A stretch of DNA of 64,000 bases from Woodsholea maritima DSM 17123 (GTDB lineage Bacteria > Pseudomonadota > Alphaproteobacteria > Caulobacterales > Maricaulaceae): NCBI RefSeq assembly GCF_000382325.1, contig NZ_KB908057.1:62001-126000 (forward strand), written 5' to 3'. Position numbers and translations under genes: made by a program. The notes beneath the pieces were generated by a model, which saw only the letters and a program-made list of their open reading frames with translations, was not told the DNA's origin and searched no databases. Positions 1 through 9,043 of this stretch are shown here, one piece after another (position 1 is the first letter of the stretch; every line of letters begins with the position of its first letter).

Positions 1-712
1 GCAGGCTGTCGCTCTCATAGAAGGTTTCGATCCACGCCCCCGTGAGGGGGCGACTCAAACAGCATCGAGCCCAATTGCTCGAATAAATCGTTTCGATCCA
101 CGCCCCCGTGAGGGGGCGACCGCGCGTGGCTCGCCTCAGCCATTGCCTGCATCGGTGTTTCGATCCACGCCCCCGTGAGGGGGCGACCGTTGTCTGGCAG
201 TTGACGCAAAGCATAGATTGCCGTTTCGATCCACGCCCCCGTGAGGGGGCGACCTCCAAAGCTGAGCTAACAAAAGTCAATCAGCTTGTTTCGATCCACG
301 CCCCCGTGAGGGGGCGACAGGCCACGGCTGCATTTAGGCCGCTGTCGATTGGTTTCGATCCACGCCCCCGTGAGGGGGCGACGATGCGGGCGATCACGCT
401 TTGGCGGAGTTTCTCGTGTTTCGATCCACGCCCCCGTGAGGGGGCGACACTGTCACGGATATTGTGGTCAGATCACACTTGATGTTTCGATCCACGCCCC
501 CGTGAGGGGGCGACGATGGTAAAAAAGCGCTATACTTTGATGAGGACGATGTTTCGATCCACGCCCCCGTGAGGGGGCGACTTGTTGCGTTCTGGGGATC
601 GAGTTTTGCGCCAAAGGTTTCGATCCACGCCCCCGTGAGGGGGCGACATTAGACACGGAGGCGAGCCGCGCACGTGGCGTGGTTTCGATCCACGCCCCCG
701 TGAGGGGGCGAC
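1..712 (-). CRISPR. Type I-C CRISPR array, 11 repeats, continues past left edge
   Basis: Eleven identical 31-bp repeats start at 24, 90, 157, 223, 288, 352, 418, 484, 551, 617 and 682. They are separated by ten spacers of 33-36 bp, and bases 1-23 are the end of a further spacer. On the minus strand each repeat begins GTCGCCCCC, has a 7-bp stem with loop TCAC, and ends GTGGATCGAAAC, which is the type I-C pattern (Cas5c cuts at the stem base, leaving the ...GAAAC 5' handle). The cas genes and the AT-rich leader lie at the right end, so the newest spacer is at 648-681. I see no point mutation in any of the 11 repeats, including the leader-proximal one. All spacers look unrelated to each other. 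Confidence 0.98.
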
Positions 713-2937: not shown

Positions 2938-3852
2938 TTATATGCGCTCGATAATTTCGACCCCGCTGGGCAATCCTTCGCGATTGATACTGACGGTGTA
3001 ATCTTTGAAATGTCGCGGCGGTGTATTGGCGTCAGGCGCATTTGAAACTGTGATGCGATCAAATAGGGCGTGGGCGGGGGCATCACCCAAACGATTTGAA
3101 TGTTTGAAAATGATTAATTTTCGAGTGCTCATCAGCCCACGTGCAGCAGACCTGTCGTGTTCAAACATCTGCTCCATTGCGGTCCAAAACAGCTCTAAAT
3201 CTTTCGCGTCAAATCCGGTTTGATTAGCCAAGGGGGCATTGATGAAGCCATTGGCGCGATAGAGGCCATAGGGCACAATATGTTTGCGGCCCATGGTGCG
3301 ATTGTCTTTGCGCTCATCGCCTTGGTTTTCGCCTTCGGTGCGTTGTTGTTTTTCTTTTTCAGTGGTTGCTGCCATACGGGTAATCGAGACTTCGGCGGGG
3401 CTGATGGGATCAATGGATTGAGCGAAGGTCATTTGAATTGGTCCGCGAACTTGACCACAATTGACCCCCGTTGACATAACGGCACCAAAGGTGCGCACGT
3501 CATAAAAATGCTCACACATAAATTTTTTCAGCTGGTGTGCTTCTTCATCTGTTTGTGGATTTAGCTTGCCCGGTTTGATGTTACCTTCTCCGCGTATCGC
3601 GACATAGGCCTTGCGATGCTGATCGTTGAGAATGCTGTTCTCACGGACATAAATCCCTAAAGCTGGTTCACCTTGGCCTACCAGATCAATGTAATTGCGA
3701 ACTTTGCGTTTCAAGCAGACATCTGTGACCAGGCCCAAACCGGTTTCTGGATCAATGCGGGGTAAATTACCCGCATCAGGGTCGCCATTGGGGTTGCCAT
3801 TTTCAACATCAAAAAACAGCACGAAATCATATCGGTTTTCTAGCGCACTCAT
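2938..3852 (-). CDS. cas7: Cascade backbone protein Cas7c (Csd2)
   Basis: A 304-residue Cas7 of the type I-C (Csd2) family, the RRM-fold protein that polymerises along the crRNA spacer and holds the target strand. The N-terminus is typical: RYDFVLFFDVENGNPNGDPD followed by a predicted RNA-contacting loop (LPRIDPETGLGLVTDVCLKR). A conserved FGAVMSTG and RGPIQM segment follows, and a long thumb-like charged insert (EKEKQQRTEGENQGDERKD) is present. It overlaps cas8c by 4 bp (ATGA), so the two are probably translationally coupled, and it is followed at 5 bp by cas4. Confidence 0.96.
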   Translation of the reverse strand: MSALENRYDFVLFFDVENGNPNGDPDAGNLPRIDPETGLGLVTDVCLKRKVRNYIDLVGQGEPALGIYVRENSILNDQHRKAYVAIRGEGNIKPGKLNPQTDEEAHQLKKFMCEHFYDVRTFGAVMSTGVNCGQVRGPIQMTFAQSIDPISPAEVSITRMAATTEKEKQQRTEGENQGDERKDNRTMGRKHIVPYGLYRANGFINAPLANQTGFDAKDLELFWTAMEQMFEHDRSAARGLMSTRKLIIFKHSNRLGDAPAHALFDRITVSNAPDANTPPRHFKDYTVSINREGLPSGVEIIERI

Positions 3853-5633
3853 GCTTCTGGCTCCCCATCAACGTGGTCTGATGATTGTTGTGTCTTGAAA
3901 AATTCTTGGCGCTGGTGGTGATAACCTAGCGCGAATAAGGCCTGATCTATTTCAGGCAATGTGGCCGGGATCGGATCCTGATCGGGTGACATTGTCGCCA
4001 TGATTTCATCGATCTTATTGTCTAGGAAGCGTTTTGATTTTAGGCGATCCTTGCCTAAACGGGATAAATGGGATGCAGAGTTACGGTCTAAAGCCGCAAA
4101 AACGCTGCGCGGTCTCGTGCTGGCCGCTGCATAAAACTTGTCTTTCAGGGTTGCATTAACTTGACTGCCCAGTGCTGAGAACTGGATATATTCATAGGTC
4201 GCGAATAATCGGCCCAGCCGATACCCCCGGTTATCAAAGTCATGATCAAGCGCCACGGGCACCTCCCTGCCAAAATTGCGGATCAAGACAGCTTTCATCA
4301 TTGCCACGCGCTTGGCATTGATGTGCTTATCTGTTCGTATTCTCATTAAAGTGGTGGACAATAAGGTCAGCGGATAGCGCGCGCCTGATAAGATGGCGCG
4401 GTACCAGTCACCCGCCAGGTTTGGGGGGACATTTTCGCGCTTACCCTGTACCGCAAGTTCGCTGAGAAAGCGCCATAAAGGGGGTAAGTTTTCTTCTCCC
4501 CTATCCAAGGGGGCTACGCGCATGTCTTCAAAAAAACGTTGCTGGCGTTCAATGAAAGCACTGAAGTTATTATCAAACCAAAACCGAATTGAAAGGCGTG
4601 CCGCATTGGGGGCAAGGCCCAAAATATAAAAGCGAACATCTTGTGCCAAATGAGGTGCGACGAGAGCCAGAGGCTGGCCTTGGAGAAGCTTTTGGAGCTT
4701 CTCAGCAATATCGCGTGTGGCGGAGTGTTCTTCTTTTGCCCTTTTTTCTAATAGCTCTTGCGCAGCTTGCGAGCTATCAAACAACCCGATGGCCAGTGTT
4801 TCGGCATCTTGAGCTTGCTCGCGGGTGGGGGCCTTCGCCCAGAACACACAAGACGCATCACCGATTTGGATCCGATGCATAGGGTCGGACAACATGGCGT
4901 TGAGGGCCGTGACATATTTAAAGGTTGTCAGCTCGCCAACTGGGGCATTTTCACCTTGGATGTGGCCATAGGAGGTAAACGCATCTTGATTGAACGAGAC
5001 AATCGAAGCCCCAGAACTCTGTGCACCCCAAACGCCCTTAATTGAAGGGTGAAGACGACATGTGGGGGCATACTCCCCTGATATGAGGCAAGCTTTGCGA
5101 TCTTGGTCATTGTTATTCATATCAGCCCAAAGCGCTTTTGCGGCAGGACGATCATGTAAATAATAATTGGACAGGCGGTCGGCTTCCAACGCAAAAACTA
5201 TATTCTGATCCAGCATCTCTTCTGGCCATTCTCGCTCGACAAATTGCTGGGGCGTCCATGATTGCAAGAAAGCGAGCAGGGCCAGTAAGCCGGGGTCCGT
5301 AATGCCCTTTAAGGCATTGAAGTGATATGATTTAAAGGCTTCGTGTTCAGCCTCTAAGCGTTTGCTGTTGCCTACCCCTAAGACATAGGCCGTTTTATCC
5401 CAGAGGAAGTTAGAGGCGATACCTGATGTGCGTTTGCTGCCCTCTGGTACCGTCAGGACGCGCGGAATATCTTTTTTTGCCGTCTTTGGGCGATAGAGTA
5501 AACGTGCGGGAAGCGCAGGCTCTCCGTTTGGATATAGTCCAATGACATAACCAATTTTGGCATTGGCAAATCCCGCAGTGGGCATATCCGGTAAATGATC
5601 ATAGGCCGCAGCCAGCTCAGCTATAATCGTCAT
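3849..5633 (-). CDS. cas8c: Cascade large subunit Cas8c (Csd1)
   Basis: A 594-residue Csd1/Cas8c protein, the large subunit that reads the PAM and recruits Cas3. The length is normal. Family-typical stretches include AAAYDHLPDMPTAGF at the N-terminus, the middle region with CLISGEYAPTCRLHPSIKGV (a Csd1 hallmark with paired cysteines) and GASIVSFNQDAFTSYG, and a helical C-terminus that in I-C systems is also made separately as Cas11 from an internal start. It overlaps cas5 and cas7 by 4 bp each. No frameshift is seen. If the CreTA-like element in the cas3-cas5 gap is real, this subunit would be needed for its silencing. Confidence 0.95.
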   Translation of the reverse strand: MTIIAELAAAYDHLPDMPTAGFANAKIGYVIGLYPNGEPALPARLLYRPKTAKKDIPRVLTVPEGSKRTSGIASNFLWDKTAYVLGVGNSKRLEAEHEAFKSYHFNALKGITDPGLLALLAFLQSWTPQQFVEREWPEEMLDQNIVFALEADRLSNYYLHDRPAAKALWADMNNNDQDRKACLISGEYAPTCRLHPSIKGVWGAQSSGASIVSFNQDAFTSYGHIQGENAPVGELTTFKYVTALNAMLSDPMHRIQIGDASCVFWAKAPTREQAQDAETLAIGLFDSSQAAQELLEKRAKEEHSATRDIAEKLQKLLQGQPLALVAPHLAQDVRFYILGLAPNAARLSIRFWFDNNFSAFIERQQRFFEDMRVAPLDRGEENLPPLWRFLSELAVQGKRENVPPNLAGDWYRAILSGARYPLTLLSTTLMRIRTDKHINAKRVAMMKAVLIRNFGREVPVALDHDFDNRGYRLGRLFATYEYIQFSALGSQVNATLKDKFYAAASTRPRSVFAALDRNSASHLSRLGKDRLKSKRFLDNKIDEIMATMSPDQDPIPATLPEIDQALFALGYHHQRQEFFKTQQSSDHVDGEPEA

Positions 5634-6331
5634 CCTATGACGTCCCCAGAATGTGGGCCGGGTACCTTTAAAACACCATTTTCCAGACGGGCTTTAAAAA
5701 AGCGCGAAGGCTTATCTGGGGCATTGTGCTCGATATCCCATAGCATGGTGCCTAGATCACGTGGGACATGGAACCCTAATTCAGGGGTTTGATGGTGGGG
5801 CTCCATGCGCGGCACTTCGCTATCGGGCTCAATTAAGGTAAAGGCAGCGGGAAATTCACGTGTGCCCAGGCAAGGTTGATGAAAGCATTGCCCCTTGCGT
5901 GCGCGCCGGTTGAACACATCAAGATGTTTGCCGGGATTGTCCTCTGGTCCGGCGCGTTGGGTCATCTCGAAATGAGCTTCAATGATATAGGCAACATCGC
6001 TCAGCATTGTGGTGGCGCGTTGCTGGCGCTGCTCTTCAATCACCAATCCCCCCAATTTTTCAGGAGATCGCGCTTTGAAAGCGGATTTGACATCAGAGTA
6101 TGGAATTTTACTGCCCACCTCATTGCGTCTTATGGACGTGAAGCGAATAGGCTTTAGTACGTGAATGGCATCAACAATCCATCGGATGGCCGGCTTCCAA
6201 TAGATGGCTTCCAAAATGCCGCGGGCGGCCGAAGGTGTCATAACATCATATGAGACCCGTTCAGCCTTCATTTCTGGTCGGGTAAAACACGCCCTGCTCC
6301 CCCAAACATGTAAGCGAATGCCGTAGCTCAC
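5630..6331 (-). CDS. cas5c: crRNA-processing Cascade subunit Cas5c
   Basis: A 233-residue Cas5d-type protein. In type I-C, which lacks Cas6, this protein cuts the repeat RNA at the 3' base of its stem and stays on the 5' handle. It reads SYGIRLHVWGSRACFTRPEMKAERVSYDVMTPSAARG, the family N-terminus with the glycine-rich RNA-binding turn, and ends in the usual short beta region. The start is GTG with GGAGGGG 6-8 nt upstream. It is first in the Cascade operon, after a 370-bp gap. A candidate promoter (TTGCCC, 17 bp, TTTATT; 6387-6359) lies directly in front. Confidence 0.95.
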   Translation of the reverse strand: MSYGIRLHVWGSRACFTRPEMKAERVSYDVMTPSAARGILEAIYWKPAIRWIVDAIHVLKPIRFTSIRRNEVGSKIPYSDVKSAFKARSPEKLGGLVIEEQRQQRATTMLSDVAYIIEAHFEMTQRAGPEDNPGKHLDVFNRRARKGQCFHQPCLGTREFPAAFTLIEPDSEVPRMEPHHQTPELGFHVPRDLGTMLWDIEHNAPDKPSRFFKARLENGVLKVPGPHSGDVIG

Positions 6332-6358
6332 TTTATCCCCTCCCGTGAATAATGCGCA

Positions 6359-6387
6359 AATAAAGATGAATTTGCGGGTGAGGGCAA
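6359..6387 (-). promoter_or_regulatory. Candidate promoter of the cas5c-cas2 operon
   Basis: On the minus strand TTGCCC (6387-6382) and TTTATT (6364-6359) are 17 bp apart, ending about 28 bp before the cas5 GTG. It lies downstream of the crRNA-like element, so the Cascade genes could be transcribed independently of the small ORF promoter at 6677-6649. Prediction from hexamer match only. Confidence 0.35.
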
Positions 6388-6407
6388 GTGCTTATGGTTG
6401 CTTCCCC

Positions 6408-6488
6408 CCCGAGACTTAATTGGTCTCGGGAGGTTCGCAGCCTACCGGTTGAGGCTCAAGTTTCAACCCACACACCTATGGGTGTGAC
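6408..6488 (-). ncRNA. Candidate crRNA-like RNA (CreA-like): degenerate repeat plus spacer-like segment
   Basis: On the minus strand 6488-6460 (29 nt) reads like one diverged array repeat: GTCAC at the 5' end, a 6-bp stem CACACC/GGTGTG with loop CATA, and 3' end GTGGGTTGAAAC (array: GTGGATCGAAAC). The stem differs from the array stem on both sides yet still pairs, which argues for selection on structure. It is followed by a spacer-like 29-nt stretch beginning TTGAGCCTCAACCGG, then a strong hairpin (stem CCCGAGAC/GTCTCGGG, 6430-6408) that could stand in for a second repeat or form the 3' end. The first 8 spacer bases match a TTC-flanked site at 6683-6690. It starts 3 bp after the 42-codon ORF. 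The layout resembles CreA antitoxin RNAs of CreTA modules; function is inferred. Confidence 0.7.
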
Positions 6489-6491
6489 GCT

Positions 6492-6620
6492 TTACAATTT
6501 TTCGAGAATTGTAATGATCAGTCGCATGAACATGTCTGGTGAGGCTTTGGATAAATAGCGCCATAACGTATCCATCCACTTTGGAACATGAAATTCAGTT
6601 GGGAATTGCGGAAGACGCAT
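6492..6620 (-). CDS. 42-residue small ORF beside the crRNA-like RNA, candidate CreT-type toxin
   Basis: ATG at 6620, TAA at 6494-6492. TGGAG lies 8 nt before the ATG (6633-6629), an excellent Shine-Dalgarno. The protein starts MRLPQFPTEFHVPKWMDTL, contains LWRYLSKASPD, and ends with an amphipathic helix-like stretch (MFMRLIITILEKL). I recognise no family. It lies between a promoter with a perfect TTGACA (6677-6649) and the degenerate repeat, the position of creT in known CreTA modules, where Cascade guided by CreA represses the toxin. It could instead be a leader peptide of the Cascade operon or a chance ORF. Known CreT products vary and some act as RNAs, so the RNA rather than the peptide might be active. 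Confidence 0.5.
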   Translation of the reverse strand: MRLPQFPTEFHVPKWMDTLWRYLSKASPDMFMRLIITILEKL

Positions 6621-6648
6621 GCCAAACACTCCAGCTCTGATATGCTAA

Positions 6649-6677
6649 GCGATAAATCACAATTAGAGGTATGTCAA
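6649..6677 (-). promoter_or_regulatory. Promoter of the 42-codon ORF / crRNA-like element
   Basis: On the minus strand TTGACA (6677-6672, a perfect -35) is followed after 17 bp by TATCGC (6654-6649, a weak -10). A transcript starting near 6642 would reach the Shine-Dalgarno at 6633 and the ATG at 6620. The -35 begins 3 bp from the TTC motif at 6680-6682 of the adjacent Cascade-target candidate, so a Cascade bound there should block RNA polymerase. Confidence 0.55.
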
Positions 6678-6679
6678 TC

Positions 6680-6717
6680 TTCTTGAGCCTAAAATGTATG
6701 CTACAAGATAATATCCA
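6680..6717 (+). promoter_or_regulatory. Candidate Cascade binding site: TTC PAM plus 8-nt seed match
   Basis: Plus strand 6680-6682 is TTC, the canonical type I-C PAM. The next eight bases (6683-6690, TTGAGCCT) are identical to the first eight bases of the spacer-like segment at 6459-6452; positions 10, 11 and 14 also match. A seed-only match is what known CreA RNAs use: enough for Cascade binding and repression, too little for Cas3 cleavage. The rest of the 35-nt footprint runs into the 3' end of cas3. The site is directly upstream of the TTGACA at 6677-6672. The regulatory role is inferred. Confidence 0.55.
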
Positions 6718-9043
6718 TGGTGTTGCTTCTCTCCCATTCCAAGCCAATGTCGCGGTTATAGAGAGCCGTTCGAGTGAGTAGCAAAAATTGATCCCCATAA
6801 AAATCCGGTTTTATATAGTGGGCGGCCCCGTTTTGGATAAGGGCCTCGCGATCTTTTGGGCTGATCTGAACAATGAAGCGTTGCAATTCGCGCGCGGCTT
6901 GGGAAGGCCATATTTTGCGCTGATCCAGATCTGTTAAGACTTGCTCGATCTCTGTTGAGGGTATGATGATTGGCAGGTTTCGATCTTTAATCATCTTGAA
7001 GCGCTCTGCGCAGGTGCGAAACTGTCCTTCGAGCATGGTGTTATGATCAAGCGTAAAGAGAGAGAGGATTTCGTTTTCGTCGACCCCTTGGGCACCTAAA
7101 CGCCAGGTAACTTCACGAAAATACCCTTCAACGGCTTCTAAGCTCAGAAGGTCGTCTTTAAAAATATGCTCAATGCGGCGAAAATCTTCTGCAAACCGTT
7201 TCATTTCAATATTCGCGGGTTGATCTTTGGGGGTAAAAACCGTGACGATGCTGTCTTCAGGGGGGCGTTTGCCGTGGCGATTACAGCGCCCTGCGGCTTG
7301 CGCAATATTGGCTAGTCCAGCCTCAGCACGCCACACTGTGGGAAAGTCCAGATCTACGCCCGCTTCAATCAGCGAGGTGGCGATCAAGCGGCACGGCTCA
7401 TTGTTCTGCAGGTGATGACCAACCTCTTCCAAAATGGTTTGACGGTCTGTAGCATGTTGGCGTGTGCTTAAATGCGTTACTCCTTCAAGATGGGCCTCTT
7501 TAAGAGCCTGGAATAGCTCACGTGCATGGGTACGCGAATTGACAATCACTAGGGCTTGGGGGCTACCTTTCAAGGTCTCAACCAGGCTGGCATCATCGCA
7601 CATACCCGCTAGTCTCACGACAACGCGCTTAAAATTTTGCACTAAGGCAGAAGGGTTGGGGGCAAGCTCTGTGACTTGGCTTTGTATGCGCAGGGGGTTG
7701 TTTTCTTGAGTGTCCGTATTGAGATGTAACTGATTGATGGGTTGAGTAGCCGTGCATAACACGACGCTACACTCATAATTGCGTGCAAGATTATCAAGGG
7801 CTTGGATGCATGGGCCCATCAAGCCCCAGGGTAAGCTTTGAACTTCGTCGATGATTATAATTGAGCGCGCGATATTATGAAGTTTTCGACATCGCGACGG
7901 GCGCGCGGCAAACAGGCTTTCAAATAGCTGAACTGTAGTGGTGACGATGAGGGGGGCAGCCCAATCTTCCATCGCCAAGTTAAGTTTGCTGCGAGCTTCA
8001 AGGGCATGATCGGCAGGAAAATTATTTAACTCAATTGCGCTGTGGTGCTCTAAAATATGCTGGCCAACCTCTGAGCCTAACACTGAGCGGAAAGTTTTCG
8101 CGGTTTGTTCAATAATTGAGGTAAACGGGATGGCATATATAATGCGCCGTAGGTCATGGTGCGCGGCATGATCCAGTGCGAAGCCTAGCGAGGTTAGCGT
8201 TTTTCCACCACCCGTCGGTACGGTCAGCGAGAACACACCTTTTGGCAAGCTTGCAAAACTGCGAACATGATTGTGCACGCGCGCGCGTTCATCTTCGACA
8301 AAGTTTTGTGTTTTCTGTATTGTACGAAAAGCATCCATCCGCTCATTAAGAGCCGTGAGAGCTTGCGGCAAGAGCATGGATAGGCTTGGCCAATCACGTG
8401 GTGGGATGCGACCTTCAAGTGTCGCATAATAGTGCTCAGTATCTTTGAAGTCGCTATCAACCAGACAGGAAAAAATCATACGGGTTAGAAAAGCGAATTC
8501 GAATCCATGCCAGGTCTTTTTTCCAAATTTAAAGCCTTGTGGGATCAATCCCTTAAGTTGGATATTAATCTCAGTTTCCCAGACCGGATCAAGCAAAGAC
8601 GGTTGAAAATTTTCTAAGCGTTCTTTCAATCTGCCACCGCCTTCATTTGAGAGCTGTCGCCAATCGGGTAATCCGGCATGATGGCCTGCAATGGCATAGC
8701 CGATAAGGCGGGAAAAAATCCTATCGGCTGGGCTTAAGTTTTGGGTAAGGGGGCTTTGGCTTACCACTTTTACAGCAGTTTCTACGGCCCATGCCCCGGC
8801 AAGGGCATGTTCAACTTTTATAGTTTCACCGCGAATGCGGCGCTGAAAGTCTAGATTATACTTGCCCAAGTCGTGCAAAATTCCAGCACATTGCGCGAGC
8901 GGGCCCGCCCCAAAAGAGCCTGCGAATTTGTATGCCAACGCACCGGTTTGCTTGAGATGGTCTTTAAGCAGATGCCAAGGCTGATTAGGGGTGTTGGGGG
9001 AGTGGGCGGCAAATATTTTTTCTGACATGATCTTAGGGAGCAT
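6701..9043 (-). CDS. cas3: CRISPR-associated helicase/nuclease Cas3 (HD + DExH)
   Basis: A 780-residue Cas3, the nuclease-helicase recruited by Cascade to shred target DNA. The N-terminal HD nuclease domain shows HLLKDHLKQTG, GILHDLGKYNLDFQ, VEHALAGAWAVE and GHHAGLPDW (about residues 20-160). The helicase follows with Walker A PTGGGKTLTSLGF, the DEVQ box in IIIIDEVQSLP, CTATQP and motif VI QAAGRCNRHGK. All catalytic motifs are present. The start may be 9043 or the ATG at 9028 (MSEKIFAAHSP, closer to family starts); neither has a clear Shine-Dalgarno. It leads the locus but is separated from cas5 by 370 bp, so it is probably transcribed on its own. Confidence 0.96.
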   Translation of the reverse strand: MLPKIMSEKIFAAHSPNTPNQPWHLLKDHLKQTGALAYKFAGSFGAGPLAQCAGILHDLGKYNLDFQRRIRGETIKVEHALAGAWAVETAVKVVSQSPLTQNLSPADRIFSRLIGYAIAGHHAGLPDWRQLSNEGGGRLKERLENFQPSLLDPVWETEINIQLKGLIPQGFKFGKKTWHGFEFAFLTRMIFSCLVDSDFKDTEHYYATLEGRIPPRDWPSLSMLLPQALTALNERMDAFRTIQKTQNFVEDERARVHNHVRSFASLPKGVFSLTVPTGGGKTLTSLGFALDHAAHHDLRRIIYAIPFTSIIEQTAKTFRSVLGSEVGQHILEHHSAIELNNFPADHALEARSKLNLAMEDWAAPLIVTTTVQLFESLFAARPSRCRKLHNIARSIIIIDEVQSLPWGLMGPCIQALDNLARNYECSVVLCTATQPINQLHLNTDTQENNPLRIQSQVTELAPNPSALVQNFKRVVVRLAGMCDDASLVETLKGSPQALVIVNSRTHARELFQALKEAHLEGVTHLSTRQHATDRQTILEEVGHHLQNNEPCRLIATSLIEAGVDLDFPTVWRAEAGLANIAQAAGRCNRHGKRPPEDSIVTVFTPKDQPANIEMKRFAEDFRRIEHIFKDDLLSLEAVEGYFREVTWRLGAQGVDENEILSLFTLDHNTMLEGQFRTCAERFKMIKDRNLPIIIPSTEIEQVLTDLDQRKIWPSQAARELQRFIVQISPKDREALIQNGAAHYIKPDFYGDQFLLLTRTALYNRDIGLEWERSNTMDIIL

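Follow-up and report, generated by a model that had tools for sequence, protein, structure and literature searches.

A solitary repeat-like element, here termed the psi-repeat, lies in the gap between cas3 and cas5c of Woodsholea maritima DSM 17123, within a 64-kb stretch of DNA that we analyzed as a whole (hereafter the window) and outside the clustered regularly interspaced short palindromic repeats (CRISPR) array. The locus is type I-C, comprising cas3-cas5c-cas8c-cas7c-cas4-cas1-cas2 on the minus strand together with I-C repeats, cas2 being assigned by position and sequence. We consider it probable that the psi-repeat heads creA of a type I-C CreTA module located in this gap, with a small protein as CreT. 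The array, the effector genes, and the element are arranged as follows:

1..712, minus strand: type I-C CRISPR array, 11 repeats inside the window, truncated by the window edge
2938..3852, minus strand: cas7c (PF05107)
3849..5633, minus strand: cas8c (PF09709)
5630..6331, minus strand: cas5c (PF09704), downstream neighbor of the element and expected processing nuclease of the repeat
6460..6488, minus strand: psi-repeat of creA (psiR1), GT followed by the stem CACACC/GGTGTG and the 11-nt tag TGGGTTGAAAC; full 29-mer GTCACACCCATAGGTGTGTGGGTTGAAAC
6701..9043, minus strand: cas3 (HD/helicase), upstream neighbor of the element

Read from 6488 to 6460 on the minus strand, the psi-repeat is GTC-ACACCCATAGGTGTG-TGGGTTGAAAC, at the coordinates correctly assigned by a previous sequence-only reading of this DNA. 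The window contains 12 copies of the motif GTGGRTYGAAAC, 11 in the array repeats and one in the psi-repeat, with 0.05 expected by chance. Compared with the array repeat (minus strand, GTCGCCCCCTCACGGGGGCGTGGATCGAAAC, 11 copies at 1-712), the psi-repeat is 29 rather than 31 nt long, each stem arm being one base pair shorter, and 2 of 12 tag positions are changed. The sequence-only reading had claimed that the 5' GTC, hairpin position, and 3' tag of the array repeat are preserved, and that both stem arms are altered with pairing intact. Both statements agree with the sequence: 10 of 12 tag positions are identical, and the stem CACACC/GGTGTG, which stands in place of CGCCCCC/GGGGGCG in the array, is fully paired around a 4-nt loop. 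When the 29-mer was folded alone, another register was slightly favored (-10.7 vs. -8.0 kcal/mol for the canonical one); the canonical hairpin was dominant when 101 nt (P about 0.75) or 289 nt (P about 0.89) of context was folded and weak for some other stretches (P 0.05 for 6488-6400, 0.23 for 6500-6440). An Rfam scan of 6300-6750 returned no match.

Selection on the hairpin and tag, as the sequence-only reading proposed, is supported (see below). That reading overlooked a likely guide function, with a target in this very gap. The sequence following the tag is TTGAGCCTCAACCGG..., and its first 8 nt, TTGAGCCT, recur on the plus strand at 6683-6690, directly after TTC, the protospacer adjacent motif (PAM) of type I-C systems (PMC8406640):

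6405..6433, minus strand: G+C-rich hairpin of 11 bp, abutting the psi-spacer, with no U-tract, in the position expected for a second repeat (psiR2)
6434..6459, minus strand: psi-spacer of creA, TTGAGCCTCAACCGGTAGGCTGCGAA..., the first 8 nt being the seed
6680..6682, plus strand: PAM TTC of the CreA target, directly preceding the seed match
6683..6700, plus strand: protospacer-like target, 8 contiguous matches and then partial matching (TTGAGCCTAAAATGTATG vs. TTGAGCCTCAACCGGTAG)

The combined PAM and seed string has a single occurrence in the window, and an equal contiguous match within the cas3-cas5c gap arose in 1 of 20,000 psi-spacer shuffles. Genome-wide specificity was assessed with an exact 11-mer only: TTCTTGAGCCT has three occurrences in 3.1 Mb, close to the chance expectation. 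The target is 194 nt from the psi-repeat. The hairpin at 6405-6433 may serve as the 3' handle or boundary of creA; a scan for an intrinsic terminator after creA found none. Since RNA anti-CRISPRs (Racrs) are themselves solitary repeats (PMC10651486), the element could be a phage-derived repeat that titrates Cas proteins. However, it sits inside the host cas operon, and a PAM-flanked target of its own would be superfluous for a titrating repeat; we regard this explanation as extremely improbable.

Between the target and the psi-repeat lies a small open reading frame (ORF), led by a Shine-Dalgarno (SD) sequence (P = 0.01 in a shuffle test), downstream of a putative promoter:

6492..6620, minus strand: creT candidate, 42 amino acids (aa), MRLPQFPTEFHVPKWMDTLWRYLSKASPDMFMRLIITILEKL, stop codon 3 nt ahead of the psi-repeat
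6629..6632, minus strand: SD sequence GGAG, read directly, 8 nt upstream of the ATG
6649..6654, minus strand: putative -10 box TATCGC, at 17-nt spacing from the -35 box
6672..6677, minus strand: putative -35 box TTGACA, 2 nt from the PAM, of the candidate repressed promoter

The arrangement TTGACA-17-TATCGC matches 9 of 12 consensus positions (P about 0.06), which is weak alone, and a promoter scan across the loci described below gave a slight excess over shuffles only. Promoter positions were therefore not used as strong evidence. AlphaFold, applied to the window ORF alone, predicted two helices (residues 14-26 and 28-41; mean predicted local distance difference test score, 80), and searches of Pfam and PHROGs returned no match. 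Directly before the psi-repeat, at the end of creT, an inverted repeat (ACAATT-CTCGAAA-AATTGT, 6491-6510, minus strand) overlaps TACAAT, which could be the -10 box of creA itself.

In the mechanism that we propose, Cas5c would cut the creA RNA at the base of the psi-repeat hairpin, yielding a CRISPR RNA (crRNA)-like molecule composed of the tag TGGGTTGAAAC and the psi-spacer, with the predicted start UGGGUUGAAAC-UUGAGCC. The Cas5c-Cas8c-Cas7c complex carrying creA would then bind the TTC-flanked site at 6680-6700 through the 8-nt seed, whose match is plain in the DNA. Cas3 would spare the locus because so short a complementarity would not sustain a full R-loop; repression without Cas3 cleavage through short complementarity has been reported for CreTA (PMC9458426). 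By blocking the promoter whose -35 box is 2 nt away, the bound complex would silence the 42-aa creT, predicted to be a small helical peptide that may be harmful if made. Loss or mutation of the effector, or its inhibition by an anti-CRISPR, would release creT, and the effector genes would thus be addictive. As the scan detected no terminator separating creT from cas5c, the promoter at the target may also feed cas5c-cas8c-cas7c, in which case its release may simultaneously raise effector supply, and toxin and cas autoregulation may coexist. The predicted repression of the 6680-6700 site by Cascade is well supported; the toxicity of creT is inferred.

Cas5c homologs were collected from the window's family, GTDB contigs, viral contigs, and class and phylum samples. 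The cas3-cas5c gap was below 150 nt in 79 of 116 loci with an upstream cas3 and longer in 37, mostly 300 to 400 nt. In all, 27 gaps contained a repeat-like element (window included; three reverse-oriented), a count that retains loci with weak or failed psi-repeats (L006, L021, L025, L037, L044, L106, L117, L118) as well as the related L109, L110, and L112; L071 and L124 are identical in sequence and only L071 is among the 27. When a TTC PAM was required and position 6 was disregarded, a site in the locus's own cas3-cas5c gap was matched at 9 or more of 11 positions by 18 of the 27 psi-spacers, whereas decoy pairings with the gaps of other loci reached this level in 1 of 692 cases. The psi-spacer of L074 has an 11/11 match with TTT as PAM, and was added to these 18 to give a match profile of 19 loci. 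Positions 1-5, 7-11, and 13-14 agree in 16 to 19 of the 19 pairs, with agreement fading after position 16, and mismatches concentrate at position 6 (matched in 5 of 19) and position 12 (7 of 19). Such a six-base mismatch periodicity is the usual shape of type I guide pairing. The 1-5 plus 7-11 seed pattern is the one reported for CreA (PMC8501985). Because the psi-spacers differ between most loci, the guide-target pairs look independently maintained. A lone degenerate repeat, in a locus whose cas1 is interrupted, could also be all that is left of an old array or mini-array in decay, now functionless. Against this stand the compensated stem, the intact tag, and the seed match beside a PAM within the gap itself, together with recurrence of the repeat, guide, and target set in 18 further loci whose sequences are unrelated, and we find a remnant very improbable. 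At L117 and L118, where the psi-repeats are reverse-oriented, a 10/11 match beside a promoter was seen only with GCC/GTC as PAM and was not counted; this lineage may use another PAM. L099, an IMG/VR contig filed as viral, encodes cas3 and cas5c and has a psi-repeat with a 10/11 target match; either it is a mobile element that carries cas genes or it comes from a host and was misfiled.

The psi-repeat stems were diverse (CACACC, CGCTCATT, CTCCCT, CACAGCCGA, CGTATCT, CGACCGGTG), with loops of 4 to 39 nt, and the best hairpin abutting the tag begins immediately after a GT in 17 of the 27. In an alignment of 20 rows, comprising 19 repeat-like elements (18 from other loci) and the array repeat, all five outer stem pairs were formed in every row and four of the five had changes on both sides. 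There were 23 two-sided changes, compared with 5.0 in shuffles and 0 to 2 when the alignment was slid. This alignment is composite, the arms being chosen for pairing and the loops replaced; a shuffle test that allows for arm choice is therefore the fairer figure, and gave a combined P of about 1e-11 for the 27 psi-repeats. Individually, 8 of 27 had P above 0.2, hence a clear canonical stem is not kept by every element. The claim that paired changes indicate selection could not be carried by the lone comparison of array and psi-repeat from which it was drawn, but gains support from this covariation across loci. The hairpin and tag are thus supported as being under selection, presumably for Cas5c processing and loading. 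That stem divergence would prevent recombination with the array, also proposed from the sequence alone, agrees by analogy with haloarchaeal CreTA, for which this was shown experimentally (PMC9458426).

Of the 16 loci with enough room between target and repeat, 10 had an SD-led ORF of at least 25 aa there, against 1.14 expected from dinucleotide shuffles. One of the ten, in L042, is probably wrong because a better-placed SD-led mini-ORF of nine codons with AGG-AGA is present. Grouped loosely and by eye, the small ORFs include those with M[RK]xP and a hydrophobic segment (window, L014, L120, L023, L025, L076), MRLP being common to the window and L014; those with a charged N-terminus and a hydrophobic C-terminus (L071, L072, L037, L086); and short arginine-rich ORFs (L057, L074, L017). 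A profile of six small ORFs searched against 372 genomes recovered the window's own ORF and one weak partial match only, and the L120 ORF had no match among plasmids. Given that the CreTA toxins described in PMC8501985 and PMC10097628 are all RNAs, the harmful product could be the creT RNA rather than a peptide, in the manner of tRNA-sequestering or bactericidal CreT RNAs, and L042, holding only its mini-ORF, would suit such a toxin. The window ORF, however, spans 42 codons, is SD-led with its start placed as in other loci, and is devoid of paired rare codons near the start; for the window, an RNA toxin seems improbable.

The main rival, which we judge unlikely, is autorepression of the CreR type, whereby the guide sends Cascade to a gap promoter driving cas5c-cas8c-cas7c and the 42-aa ORF is either a leader or there incidentally. 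CreR has been published for types I-B, I-E, and V-A (PMC13131331), and it would suit this reading that no terminator was detected from the target promoter to cas5c. In the Tistrella-like loci L109, L110, and L112, guide and target are 65 to 67 nt apart with no toxin-sized ORF, as CreR should look, and these look like candidate type I-C CreR modules resembling autoregulators; L112, a Tistrella mobilis plasmid position, was recovered in a separate search too. In contrast, target and repeat are 160 to 240 nt apart in the window and most positive loci, where SD-led ORFs are enriched about nine-fold. Furthermore, the small ORF of L021 ends after 11 codons and its guide-target match has decayed to 8/11, as expected if the value of the guide depended on the ORF. 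L021 may represent decay after toxin loss, although the long ORF of L009, which keeps a 10/11 match, also appears frame-shifted relative to its hydrophobic frame. For the window, CreTA is preferred over CreR because 194 nt and an ORF separate target and repeat.

CreTA modules are known in types I and III, where they lie around cas6, and in I-F, where the module follows cas3 (PMC10097628). Haloarchaeal I-B CreTA (H. hispanica and H. hubeiense) shares with the window a degenerate psi-repeat and psi-spacer, a TTC PAM, a 1-5 plus 7-11 match, and a target in the promoter, putative in the window, of a small gene within the cas operon (PMC8501985, PMC9458426). It differs in being an archaeal I-B system that employs Cas6, lies near cas6, and has an RNA CreT with an ORF of four to six codons, whereas the window has Cas5c, the cas3-cas5c gap, and a 42-aa ORF. 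Acinetobacter I-F CreTA likewise occupies a gap of about 400 bp right after cas3 and has a compensated repeat hairpin and a nearby PAM-flanked match (PMC10097628). There, the nuclease is Csy4, the PAM is CC, two repeats are present, and creT, an RNA with an 11-codon ORF, is divergent from creA; in the window, creT and creA are codirectional and a nonrepeat hairpin replaces psiR2. As in CreR, a crRNA-like guide partially matches a promoter (putative here) in the cas locus (PMC13131331, PMC12737573), but CreR targets a cas promoter without a toxin, whereas the window target precedes a small SD-led ORF. CrePA also places a protein toxin, putative in the window, under a CreA-like guide, with CreP being a KilA-N domain protein acting on FtsZ (PMC12737573). 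The window ORF, at 42 aa and with neither KilA-N nor any other Pfam match, is not a protein of that kind. The peptides of type I toxin-antitoxin systems (Ldr, TisB, Hok) are small, hydrophobic or amphipathic, and about 30 to 50 aa long, with an antisense RNA as antitoxin. The predicted window peptide is of similar type, with no sequence homology claimed, but its control would be exerted by Cascade at the promoter.

Several points weigh against a CreTA module with a peptide toxin. The isolated psi-repeat can adopt a competing register in folding models, and the -35/-10 assignment in the window is putative, being based on consensus. The window ORF is without a close homolog, 385 genomes of the class giving chance-level matches only, and its resemblance to the other small ORFs is weak beyond MRxP. 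In addition, a guide can serve another purpose, since L109, L110, and L112 pair guide and target without a toxin-sized ORF.

More broadly, the chances seem evenly balanced that I-C systems across Proteobacteria carry guard modules of their own, evolved recurrently, in this gap: CreTA with several unrelated families of small membrane-active or amphipathic peptide toxins, beside toxin-less CreR-like forms. A single repressed promoter would then control both the toxin and the effector genes, so that addiction and autoregulation share one circuit. Among I-C loci whose cas3-cas5c gap is long, about half have the candidate module. Searches centered on cas6 would miss it because type I-C is without cas6. 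Whether other types have comparable mechanisms is a question raised in a December 2025 review (PMC12737573), and our search of the openly readable literature found no report of I-C CreTA, CreR, CrePA, or solitary repeats, leaving priority uncertain. If true, guarding through self-targeted repression would be common in I-C with peptide-like toxins, a cell losing its CRISPR system would poison itself, a trigger for responses to anti-CRISPRs could be exposed, and the loci would provide a natural set of guide-target pairs from which to learn how short a match can be and still repress without cleavage.

Within the same locus, cas1 (2231-1194, minus strand) has an in-frame TAG at codon 22 (2166-2168; MKPLLNTIYIMTPESRLRKDG*NLVV..., the asterisk being the stop), and translation from an internal start at 2114 would shorten the protein by about 39 residues. 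The effector genes remain open, but the locus may be impaired in acquiring spacers. A long gap alone was not counted as CreTA because some hold a GIY-YIG-like ORF and no psi-repeat. Such an ORF (K-VVYKVTWPNGKIYVG... type, likeness judged by eye) occupies the cas3-cas5c gap of L018, L029, L036, L121, and L141, the last being a Rhizobium sp. Q54 plasmid where it is unannotated and its frame appears broken.
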